A DNA stretch of 64,000 nucleotides from Thalassobacillus devorans (GTDB lineage Bacteria > Bacillota > Bacilli > Bacillales > Halobacillaceae): positions 1,302,001 through 1,366,000 of the forward strand of contig NZ_FXEH01000006.1 of assembly GCF_900176565.1 (NCBI RefSeq), read 5' to 3'. Positions 15,843-57,217 of the stretch are shown here, in pieces. The position numbers were made by a program, and so were the translations under genes. The notes below the pieces were generated by a model that was given only the letters and a program-made list of their open reading frames with translations, was not told the DNA's origin and ran no database searches. The stretch's first letter is position 1; every line of letters begins with the position of its first letter.

Positions 15843-15871
15843 ATGTTAGCCAAAACTGAAGGCTTTGACAA
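15843..15871 (-). promoter_or_regulatory. Sigma-A-type promoter of the ypjD-panD operon
   Basis: On the minus strand TTGTCA (15866-15871) and TAACAT (15843-15848) are separated by exactly 17 nt. This places the transcription start near 15836, about 28 nt before ypjD. Confidence 0.6.
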
Positions 15872-15897
15872 ATTATTTAATCGAATTACCTCCTTTA

Positions 15898-15926
15898 TTG
15901 TCGCTTTGACGATATTTGATTATAAT
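15898..15926 (+). promoter_or_regulatory. Sigma-A-type promoter of the YitT-family gene
   Basis: TTGTCG (15898-15903), 17 nt, then a perfect TATAAT (15921-15926). Transcription would start near 15933, just before the AAAGGAGG of the following gene. It diverges from the ypjD promoter. Confidence 0.75.
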
Positions 15927-15965
15927 GGTAGACATGCACGCGACTGTGGAAAGGAGGATATAAAA

Positions 15966-16838
15966 TTGATTTTAGGGTTAAAGTATAAAAACATTTTCTT
16001 CATTTTACTTGGATCTGCTATCTTCTCATTCGGACTTGTACACTTCAATATTCAGAACAACTTAGGAGAGGGCGGCTTTACAGGTATCACCCTCCTCTTG
16101 TTATTCTTATTTAATTGGGACCCTGGAATAATGAATATCGTACTGAATGTCCCGGTATTAATTGTTGGTTGGAGAATTCTTGGAAGGAATACTTTCTTTT
16201 ATTCCTTGATTGGAATCTTTGCTGTTTCCGTCTTTATCTGGCTCTTTCAAATATATACCATTGATATTAATCTTCAATCAGATATGACACTGGCCGCACT
16301 TTTTGCAGGTGCATTCGTCGGGGTCGGTCTGGGAATCATTTTCAAATTCGGAGGAACAACAGGGGGAGTCGATATCATCGCCAGGCTGATACATAAATAT
16401 TGGGGCTGGTCGATGGGGCGTGCGATGTTTGTTTTTGATACCGCCGTCATTTTCACATCTATTATCACCTATTTGAATATGATCCAGGGGATGTATACGT
16501 TAGTGGCTGTCTATATAGCAGCCAGGGTTATTGATTTGATTCAGGAAGGAGCCTATGCAGCAAGAGGCGCTACCATCATTTCCTCGAAGAGTGAAGCGAT
16601 AGCTGCAAAAATATTGAAAGAAATGGACCGGGGAGTCACTGTACTGGAAGGTCGTGGATCATTTACCGGAGAACGTCGAGACGTGTTATATTGCGTTGTC
16701 GGTAAAAATGAAATTGTTCGCCTGAAGAATGTCATTGACGCTATTGATCCTCATGCTTTTGTAGCAGTTACATCCGTACATGATGTGTTAGGCGAAGGGT
16801 TTACATTGGATGAAAATAAGAAGCCAATTGAATATTAA
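15966..16838 (+). CDS. ypjC: YitT/YpjC-family multi-pass membrane protein (DUF161 + DUF2179)
   Basis: A 290-residue membrane protein of unknown function. About five to six hydrophobic segments fill residues 8-190, including the glycine-rich FKFGGTTGGVDIIARLIHKYWGWS signature. A cytosolic DUF2179 domain (about 205-285) has RGVTVLEGRGSFTGE and DVLYCVVGKNEI. The start is TTG at 15966 with GGAAAGGAGG 6 nt upstream and a promoter just before it; longer in-frame readings begin upstream of that promoter and are rejected. Its place next to ypjD matches the B. subtilis ypj cluster, hence the symbol, which is tentative. Confidence 0.85.
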   Translation: MILGLKYKNIFFILLGSAIFSFGLVHFNIQNNLGEGGFTGITLLLLFLFNWDPGIMNIVLNVPVLIVGWRILGRNTFFYSLIGIFAVSVFIWLFQIYTIDINLQSDMTLAALFAGAFVGVGLGIIFKFGGTTGGVDIIARLIHKYWGWSMGRAMFVFDTAVIFTSIITYLNMIQGMYTLVAVYIAARVIDLIQEGAYAARGATIISSKSEAIAAKILKEMDRGVTVLEGRGSFTGERRDVLYCVVGKNEIVRLKNVIDAIDPHAFVAVTSVHDVLGEGFTLDENKKPIEY

Positions 16839-16849
16839 GCGCAATATAA

Positions 16850-17080
16850 AGCTTATTCAATTAAAGGGCCGAAAAGTCGAAGACTTGATTTCGAGATATC
16901 TAGGGTTCTTTACCATAAAAGTATCTGGGGCGGCTGGGAAACTACTCGCTTTCCTGTGGGGGAACTGGCGAGCTTCCTCGGGCTGTCGCCCTGTGGGATC
17001 TCGCCTAGGTCCTTCTCCCACGGGAGTCTCGCAGTTTCCCATCCACCCAATCTGAAAGGTGAGAGAAAAGAACCCTTGTT
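16850..17080 (-). repeat. Composite repeat locus 1, left half (minus orientation)
   Basis: A structured repeat half. Outer stem AGGGTTCTTT (16903-16912) pairs with 17067-17076. Inner stem GGGAAACT (16936-16943) pairs with 17033-17040. The left end has the terminal repeat 16880-16899 that matches 17343-17362 in inverse orientation. It is near-identical in layout to 56571-56800. It fills the gap between two convergent genes. Confidence 0.85.
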
Positions 17081-17159
17081 ATAGAGGAGACTGTTTCTAC
17101 AATCACTGTTACAAGCATGTTTTACAAGTAGTTCTCTCTTATCTTAGGTAGAAGGACTG

Positions 17160-17382
17160 CATAACGATGTTTCCGTTTTTCCCATAAACGAAAGGAGGGC
17201 CGAGAAATTGCGAGACTCCAATGGGAAGATAGTACATGGTGAGATCCCGCAGGGCTTTAGCCCGAGGAAGCTCACCGTACGCCCATGGAAAGCGAGTAAT
17301 TTCCCGGACCTCCTAACCGTTACTGGCGTAACGGAAACAAACTATCTCGAAACTGAGTCTTCAAGAAAAGGGAGCTTTTCTG
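17160..17382 (+). repeat. Composite repeat locus 1, right half (+ orientation)
   Basis: The second half of the composite. Outer stem TGTTTCCGTT (17168-17177) pairs with 17330-17339. The inner stem near 17194-17209 pairs imperfectly with 17298-17313. An inner GGTGAG/CTCACC hairpin is also present. The right terminal repeat is at 17343-17362. It is the divergent partner of the half at 16850-17080 and closely resembles 56900-57120. Confidence 0.85.
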
Positions 17383-17428
17383 TAAAAGTTAGTGTGAAAT
17401 CCAACATAAGAATAATCAAGATAAAAAA

Positions 17429-17466
17429 ATCAGGATGCCGGGATTTCTTGGCACCCTGATTTTTTA
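17429..17466. terminator. Intrinsic terminator of the YugP-like gene (bidirectional)
   Basis: ATCAGGATGCC (17429-17439) pairs with 17450-17460 with one mismatch and is flanked by A and T runs on both sides. It ends the minus-strand gene at 17468 and could stop + strand read-through from the repeat island. Confidence 0.85.
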
Positions 17467-17467
17467 C

Positions 17468-18151
17468 TTAATCTTCGTTCATCGCGAAAAACATTAAAAG
17501 GAAACGGATCAATTCTGCTAGAGCTACCAGTGCAGCCGCGACATATGTCAATGCAGCAGCATTCAAAACCTTCTTCGTTGGACGCTCTTCGTTGTTGGTG
17601 ATGACTCCAGTTGAAACCATTTGCTCCATTGCTCTGTTGGAAGCATCGAATTCGACCGGCAACGTAATCAGCTGAAACAAAACAGCTGCAGCGAAGAAAA
17701 TGATACCCAATAGCAACAGACCACTCATCCCCAATAATGCTCCCCCAATGATGAGGAAAATAGAAATGTTAGAACCAAAACTTGCAACAGGGACTAAAGC
17801 AGATCTTAAGCGGAGAAAAGCATAATCCTGTGAATCCTGTATAGCGTGACCGACTTCGTGTGCTGCTACGGCAGAAGCAGCCATCGAATGACCGTGAAAA
17901 TTATCAGTAGACAAACGGACTACTTTTTTTCTAGGGTCATAATGGTCAGAGAGCATCCCTCTTGTTTCCTCTATTGAAACATTATATAATCCATTATCAT
18001 CTAAAATCTTCCTTGCCACCTGTGCTCCTGTCATGGAAGATGACGTCGCAACCTTTGAATATTTTTTATACGTACTCTTCACTCGTGACTGTGCCCACAA
18101 CGGTATAATCATCAAAATGGCCACATAAATCAAATATGATCCTAAGCCCAT
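17468..18151 (-). CDS. YugP-like zinc-dependent membrane metallopeptidase
   Basis: A 227-residue membrane protein with the zinc-protease motif HEVGH in AASAVAAHEVGHAIQDSQ (about residue 90). There are hydrophobic segments near the N-terminus, at about 113-160 and at the C-terminus. It belongs to the YugP family (neutral zinc metallopeptidase 2). The substrate is unknown; a role in membrane protein turnover is inference. The ATG at 18151 is chosen because GGAGG then has 7-nt spacing. Confidence 0.88.
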   Translation of the reverse strand: MGLGSYLIYVAILMIIPLWAQSRVKSTYKKYSKVATSSSMTGAQVARKILDDNGLYNVSIEETRGMLSDHYDPRKKVVRLSTDNFHGHSMAASAVAAHEVGHAIQDSQDYAFLRLRSALVPVASFGSNISIFLIIGGALLGMSGLLLLGIIFFAAAVLFQLITLPVEFDASNRAMEQMVSTGVITNNEERPTKKVLNAAALTYVAAALVALAELIRFLLMFFAMNED

Positions 18152-18215
18152 GTTCATTCCTCCATCAAAGTTGTATATCTCTATAGGTTAATATTAGTCA
18201 ATTGACAGAAAAAGG

Positions 18216-35879: not shown

Positions 35880-36095
35880 ATTCAAAAACAGGGCCAAAAA
35901 GACGAAGACTTAATTTCGAGAAATCAAAGGTTCTTTATCATAATAGAGTCAGGGCTGGCTGGGAAACTACTCGCTTTCCGAGGAAGCTCACCGTACGCCC
36001 ATGGAAAGCGAGTGATTTCCCGGCCCTCCAGAGGCACTCATCCGTAACGGAAACAACATATCTTGAAATTTATTCTTCAACAAAAATCAGCTTAG
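35880..36095. repeat. Composite repeat locus 2, deletion derivative
   Basis: The outer left part of a left half (to 35978, ending CTCGCTTTCC) is joined directly to the distal part of a right half (from GAGGAAGCTCACC). Degenerate terminal repeats remain at about 35904 and 36059-36078. The junction leaves a perfect inverted repeat CTCGCTTTCC / GGAAAGCGAG. Confidence 0.8.
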
Positions 36096-50891: not shown

Positions 50892-51075
50892 AAGCTTATT
50901 CAAAGTCCAATGGAATAATAGTGCATGGTGAGATCCCGCAGGGCTTTAGCCCGAGGAAGCTCACCGAACGCCCATGGAAAGCGAGTAATTTCCCTGACCT
51001 CCAGACACTCTCAACCGTAATGGGAACAACAACTCTCGAAACTGAGTCTTCAGCAATTGGGAGCTTAAATGCAAG
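50892..51075 (+). repeat. Composite repeat locus 3, deletion derivative
   Basis: The left edge AAGCTTATTCAA (50892-50903) is the same 12 bases that begin locus 1 at 16850. It is joined directly to the interior of a right half (from about 50906) and runs to the right terminal repeat at 51033-51051. The whole left half and the 5' arm of the right half are missing. It fills most of the sleB-prsW gap. Confidence 0.8.
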
Positions 51076-56434: not shown

Positions 56435-56570
56435 TGCATACACTCCCTCAACTTATACCTTCTTACATACTTATTCCCTACAATAGTAACATGTTCACTA
56501 AAAACCTTCTATCTAATCTTAATAAATTGTCTCTGTAAAAGATTGTAGTTGATTTTTCTTTATGGGCATA

Positions 56571-56800
56571 TTCAATTAAAGGGACGAAAAGTCGAAGACT
56601 TGATTTCGAGATATCTACGGTTCTTTACCATAAAAGTGTCAGGGGCGGCTGGGAAACTACTCGCTTTCCCGTGGGGGGAACCGGCAAGCCTCCTCGGTCG
56701 TTTTCACTCCCTGTGGGGTCTTGCCTAGTCCCTTCTCCCGCGGGAGTCTCGCAGTTTCCCTGCCACCCCATCCGAAGGATGGGAGAAAAGAACCCCTGTT
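56571..56800 (-). repeat. Composite repeat locus 4, left half (minus orientation)
   Basis: Outer stem GGTTCTTT (56619-56626) pairs with 56787-56794; inner stem GGGAAACT (56651-56658) pairs with 56753-56760. The terminal repeat is 56594-56613, identical to that of locus 1. It starts with the same TTCAATTAAAGGG edge as locus 1. Confidence 0.88.
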
Positions 56801-56899
56801 ATATTGCAGATGTCTTCTACTTTTAATGGATAATTGAATAAAGACGCGGTTTTAAGCTCACATTTCATGCATAGCTCACTCTTGGTTTGAAGAACGATA

Positions 56900-57120
56900 T
56901 ACCGATGTTTCCGTATCTCTCATAAACGCAAGGAGGTCCGGGAAATTGCGAGACTCCAGTGGGATGGACATGAGTGGTGAGATCCCGCAAGGCGAAGCCT
57001 GAGGAAGCTCACCACATGCCCACGGAAAGCGAGTAATTTCCCGGACCTCCACACCGTTACTACCGTAACGGAAACAATTTATCTCGAAACTGAGTCTTCA
57101 ATTAAAGGGAGCTTATCTGG
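56900..57120 (+). repeat. Composite repeat locus 4, right half (+ orientation)
   Basis: Outer stem TGTTTCCGT (56906-56914) pairs with 57068-57076. The inner stem is a perfect 16 bp: GGAGGTCCGGGAAATT (56932-56947) with 57035-57050. A central GTGGTGAG/CTCACCAC stem and an AGGC/GCCT hairpin are nested. The terminal repeat is at 57080-57099. This is the best-preserved half in the window. Confidence 0.9.
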
Positions 57121-57217
57121 AACATCCACATTGAGATTCAGCAAAGCCAATAAATTAAAAAAACTTATATCTTAAGGACTTATTTATGGAATGAGAGAAC
57201 TAACCTTCTATAAACAC

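Follow-up and report, generated by a model that had tools for sequence, protein, structure and literature searches.

Insertion sequences and structured repeats of similar design

The IS1595 family of insertion sequences is defined by 8-bp target-site duplications (TSDs), a zinc finger and the DDE_Tnp_IS1595 domain (PMC8101967). The element described here shares with this family (IS1595, IS1016, ISPna2 and ISSod11 groups) terminal inverted repeats (TIRs) starting with GG and AT-rich TSDs of 8 bp, and the protein of its autonomous partner carries both the zinc-binding N-terminus and the DDE_Tnp_IS1595 domain. Unlike the insertion sequences of the family, the element has no transposase gene, and its body consists of two inverted hairpins. 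Structured MITEs, such as QMITE2 of Coxiella, MITEAba12 and bcr1 of the B. cereus group, are likewise non-coding and TIR-bounded, with a short TSD, a stable fold, intergenic location and tens of copies (PMC10969869, PMC6382973, PMC2267715). As compared by description, the present element differs from them in holding two homologous inverted hairpin modules per TIR pair. The Bhal-1 stem-loop family of Bacillus halodurans, with 36 copies of 74 bp, is similar to the single hairpin core by description alone, in that its stem-loop, size and taxonomic neighbourhood fit (PMC2267715). REP/BIME repeats, which go with tyrosine (RAYT) transposases and whose short REP carries a GTAG/CGTC tag, also consist of palindromic units of alternating orientation in intergenic regions, but the REP unit is 20-40 bp long against about 180 bp here, and the present element is bounded by the TIRs of a DDE transposon with TSDs.

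Structure of the window copy

The window is a stretch of 64,000 nucleotides of the genome of Thalassobacillus devorans, a salt-loving, Bacillus-like bacterium (NZ_FXEH01000006.1, positions 1,302,001 to 1,366,000). The feature under study lies between the convergent genes 15843-16838 (plus strand) and 17468-18157 (minus strand). An earlier note, made from the sequence of the window, had remarked on its resemblance to a MITE. This resemblance was borne out, and the feature is very probably a decayed copy of an IS1595-type MITE with a twin-hairpin body. The identification is based on the matching IS1595-type TIRs, the 8-bp TSDs, an empty insertion site, the lack of an encoded protein, the tens of copies per genome and the autonomous partner in a related genus. 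The following parts were distinguished:

16850-17412, plus strand: window copy, read as a decayed twin-hairpin MITE (genome-wide copy alignment; comparison with the complete copies L022 and L004; orthologous site)
16879-16898, plus strand: left internal inverted repeat, matching 17343-17362 at 17 of 20 positions
16902-17076, plus strand: hairpin half A (nhmmer E 1.6e-55; fold z -5.3; covariation, 57 sequences), with outer stem 16902-16911/17067-17076, inner stem 16936-16943/17033-17040 and central hairpin 16967-17005
17077-17164, no strand: spacer between halves A and B, varying in length and sequence among the aligned copies
17165-17344, minus strand: hairpin half B, inverted homologue of half A (nhmmer E 5.8e-57; fold z -5.9; covariation, 60 sequences)
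17343-17362, minus strand: right internal inverted repeat, partner of 16879-16898
17396-17411, minus strand: decayed right TIR, GAAATCCAACATAAGA compared with GAGATTTAACAGAGCC in intact copies, placed by eye

The description of the feature as one unit of two inverted halves, each folding by itself, is correct. The arms of the halves are homologous, at 85% over 39 nt for 16967-17005/17238-17276 and at 95% for 16936-16954/17287-17305. The predicted folding energies are -85.1 kcal/mol for the left half and -81.7 kcal/mol for the right half, and none of 200 shuffles was as stable in either case. As had also been stated, no protein is encoded: the internal open reading frames, of 61-83 aa, track the inverted repeat, and none of them is gene-like.

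The 20-nt repeats had been taken for the ends of the element. The pair is real, with the left repeat lying one base further left than first given, but it is internal: complete copies reach about 70 bp beyond it on each side, which ruled out these repeats as the true ends. The window copy had also been called intact. Comparison with complete copies revealed that its left outer end is gone and its right outer end is decayed, unlike the ends of L022, L004/L034 and a second copy in the window, where the outer TIRs are kept; it carries neither an intact TIR nor a TSD. It is an immobile relic that has lost its outer ends, and it was assigned to the family through its homology to the complete copies.

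Complete copies and insertion sites

A search of the same genome with the element returned 109 matching pieces, of which over 20 approach full length, copies being counted as loci returned by the genome similarity search. The best-preserved copies, L022 and L004, are 619-620 bp long and carry GGCTCTGTTAAA at both ends. The TIRs of complete copies have the form GGCTCTGTTAAA-N6-TGTTGAT, with exact 8-bp AT-rich duplications outside, namely ATTTTTTA on either side of L022 and TTAAAAAA in the flanks of L004. Further copies and relics were located in the window:

56529-57148, plus strand: second window copy, complete, 620 bp, with half A at 56619-56796, half B at 56903-57081 and TIRs GTCTCTGTAAAA (56529-56540) and TTCAGCAAAGCC (57137-57148)
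56521-56528, no strand: target-site duplication AATAAATT, 8 bp, left of the second copy
57149-57156, no strand: target-site duplication AATAAATT, 8 bp, right of the second copy
50906-51029, minus strand: truncated relic of half B (nhmmer E 6.9e-32)
35928-36060, minus strand: hairpin relic with an internal deletion (nhmmer E 1.5e-19)

In the second copy (56521-57156 with the duplication), both terminal repeats are decayed and the 8-bp duplication is perfect. Copies L016, L017, L031 and L205 contain an inserted block, CGAAAATGCTACGCATTTCCTTCGTGCGGTGTCTATTCAAGAAGCTTATTCAAAGTC, inside half B, probably a further small repeat lodged within the element.

Among the 25 copies with recognisable ends, 8-bp TSDs are exact in five and have at most one mismatch in nine. 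When left flanks were paired with the right flanks of other copies, no exact duplication was obtained and 0.3% of the pairs had at most one mismatch. The flanks of L022 were then joined in silico and searched against the genomes of the genus, a check for duplications at empty sites that the earlier note had proposed. The site is empty in genome G002 (G002:C1:847252-847942), where TATCT-ATATTTTA-AATGACA runs unbroken and the flanks are 94% identical over 691 bp; at the occupied site, the 619-bp insert lies between the two ATTTTTTA duplications. The site of the window copy is occupied in G002, and the element is absent from it in G001, G003 and G004. Copies are near zero throughout G004, a genome of the same genus that contains only a few weak pieces.

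The position between convergent genes, emphasised earlier, holds for the window copy and is not typical of the family. According to gene-context counts resting on a simple open reading frame caller, made on 90 twin-hairpin copies from four genomes, 62 lie between tandem genes, 20 between convergent genes and 8 between divergent genes. Retention of single insertions as transcription terminators, insulators or topological barriers is quite improbable. The hairpins are very stable, and divergent sites are rarer than convergent ones (8 against 20), as such a role would have it; selection against promoter disruption, however, gives the same scarcity of divergent sites, and the tandem context is the commonest (62/90). 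Moreover, the element has no T-tract terminator, and the sole terminator-like site, 17436-17453, lies outside it, with a counterpart kept beside the G002 copy. A topological barrier, mentioned in the earlier note, gained no positive evidence, the sites not being restricted to convergent intergenic regions. The gene-context counts ruled out a terminator between convergent genes as a general role.

Spread of the hairpin module

The composite element or its halves were found in 40 of the 44 genomes of the host family. In other families of the order, two MITEs, L149 (184 bp) and L148 (178 bp), are similar to the hairpin with E-values of 2.3e-24 and 8.9e-10, respectively; both possess exact 8-bp TSDs, the TIRs of the Thalassobacillus element and one hairpin copy. 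Judging by the sequences, the Thalassobacillus form resembles such a single-hairpin MITE with its hairpin doubled in inverted orientation. The genome G060, of the same order, is rich in small MITEs bearing GGCTCTGTTAAA ends, with 44 forward and 42 reverse GGCTCTGTTAAA sites, many of them in facing pairs 90-270 bp apart.

No plasmid or phage carrier was found, as the element had no matches in PLSDB and INPHARED. Rfam 15, to which the earlier note had pointed, yielded no match at the gathering threshold across the window and none at E<=1 across the element. Literature searches, with ISfinder outside their scope, brought up no named repeat of Halobacillus, Thalassobacillus or Pontibacillus and no IS1595 MITE of Bacillus.

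Covariation and sequence exchange between copies

The earlier note had read paired differences between the left and right stems as covariation and concluded that the structure is selected. That comparison involves two diverged inverted duplicates, and covariation was confirmed across copies instead, using 57 sequences of half A and 60 of half B, each less than about 95% identical to the others. Changes on both sides with pairing kept were found in 16 of 36 pairs of half A and in 13 of 32 pairs of half B. Shuffles gave 6.5 and 5.5 such pairs, respectively, none of 500 reaching the observed numbers, and slid partners gave at most 6 and 10. Paired swaps with almost no G-T or A-C intermediates are among these changes; at one pair, where C-G has turned into T-A, the sequences are split 30 against 25.

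The core of the window copy is 99% identical to L002 and 84% identical to its own orthologue in G002, and the sites of both copies are occupied at orthologous positions in G002. In the pair L013/L208, half B is near-identical and the adjoining half A unrelated; L008 and L195 differ mainly in one block of half B. Read from these alignments, sequence is shown to pass between copies, through recombination or gene conversion. The cores of L001 and L002, two old insertion sites in genome G000, are 99% identical to each other and clearly unlike their G002 orthologues L204 and L205, a pattern of concerted evolution of the MITE.

Template switching between hairpin arms yields compensated double changes without selection (PMC8794818). 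Since the copies exchange sequence and template switching suffices, covariation is no proof of RNA function. The near-absence of G-T and A-C intermediates, together with the exchange between copies, weakens the step from covariation to selected structure. The covariation itself is real, and template switching together with gene conversion would suffice to produce it.

The strand test started from the premise that selection for an RNA from one strand should leave G-U tolerated on it, and was confined to pairs that have a Watson-Crick consensus and are predicted on both strands. On the outer-to-centre strand, which read-through from the neighbouring genes would transcribe, G-T changes were fewer than A-C changes at the level of sites (11 against 40) and among low-frequency changes (36 against 58). 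The A-C excess is present in both halves; since the copies recombine, shared variants are not independent. Among private changes the difference was not significant (21 G-T against 30 A-C, p 0.26). This strand bias speaks against selection for an RNA made by read-through; a weak effect on the other strand would be in keeping with it. An apparent G-U preference in raw G-T and A-C counts on the RNA-predicted structure vanished or was reversed with both-strand pairs; it stemmed from the folding rule and was artefactual. A parsimony p-value was set aside, since no tree holds for copies that recombine with one another.

It is very improbable that the element gives rise to one or more structured non-coding RNAs with the fold under selection and the transposon ends a mere vehicle. 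In keeping with such RNAs, the covariation across copies is strong, the hairpin is homologous among MITEs of different families, and the ratio of 40 A-C to 11 G-T sites from the outside to the centre means that G-U is better tolerated on the strand running from the centre outwards. Nevertheless, this bias is missing among private changes and shared variants are not independent, Rfam gave no match, and promoter-like sites are not above shuffles (one match in the spacer 17077-17164). In addition, G004 is nearly without copies even though it belongs to the same genus. No positive evidence was obtained for the structured RNA contemplated in the earlier note, either from Rfam at E<=1 or as a G-U preference on the read-through strand.

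Candidate transposase and autonomous partner

The sequence GGCTCTGTTAAA is present in 50 of 61 relatives, and a reversed-pattern control was near zero. In a genome of a related genus, G012, two facing GGCTCTGTTAAA ends 1619 bp apart enclose an intact open reading frame of 350 aa. This autonomous insertion sequence of 1619 bp has the 8-bp TSD TTAAATAA on both sides and the same TIRs as the complete MITE copies. Its 350-aa product is a transposase of the IS1595 family (NF033547, 9.6e-63; PF12762, 1.3e-13), and the published features of this family agree with the element (PMC8101967). The TIRs of L022, L004, L140 and L143 match those of L134, an autonomous IS1595 element (GGCTCTGTTAAA-N6-TGTTGAT). 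Another genome, G014, contains two IS1595 transposases, 81% identical, and many hairpin copies, including a twin hairpin. The shared ends suggest that the element may be mobilised in trans.

In five Thalassobacillus genomes, no IS1595 transposase was found except for a fragment in G002. The transposase remnant L169 (G002:C8:3213-4117) lies about 0.7 kb from a perfect TIR and is probably a dead autonomous copy.

Insertion sequences of the ISL3 and IS6 families also have 8-bp TSDs and GGCTCTGTT-like ends. Membership of the element in one of these other families with GG-starting ends and 8-bp duplications is nonetheless scarcely credible, as the ISL3 domain PF01610 was detected in none of the five genomes and the only complete element with exactly matching ends encodes an IS1595 transposase. 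Assignment to ISL3 from the GGCTCT ends and 8-bp TSD was ruled out by the absence of PF01610 from the genus (0/5).

Origin of the copies and significance

For the IS1595-type MITE, the following course of events seems plausible. The copies, whose body is made up of the hairpin module present twice in inverted orientation, were probably spread by an IS1595 transposase that worked in trans on their terminal repeats. The genus now seemingly has no such transposase, and the copies would be stranded and decay from the ends inwards. Gene conversion and template switching between arms may maintain pairing in the stems. Selection could also act on the hairpin, whether for its persistence as DNA, for transposition or in the form of RNA. 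The element represents a new family within a well-known kind of element and not a new RNA gene, the nearest named families having been compared by description.

It is quite unlikely that the hairpin module is a conserved structured unit whose transcription runs outwards from the spacer through each half, which several different MITEs sharing these ends have spread through Bacillales, and whose pairing is selected to the benefit of element or host. In that case, the excess of G-U-compatible changes that both halves show on the strand from centre to outside would be the mark left by it.

With the IS1595-type MITE, a repeat of 40 of the 44 host-family genomes that is absent from Rfam acquires clear ends, a rule for its target sites and a plausible transposase. 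The element likewise provides textbook covariation in a DNA repeat whose paralogues exchange sequence, a caution against reading such a pattern as functional RNA.
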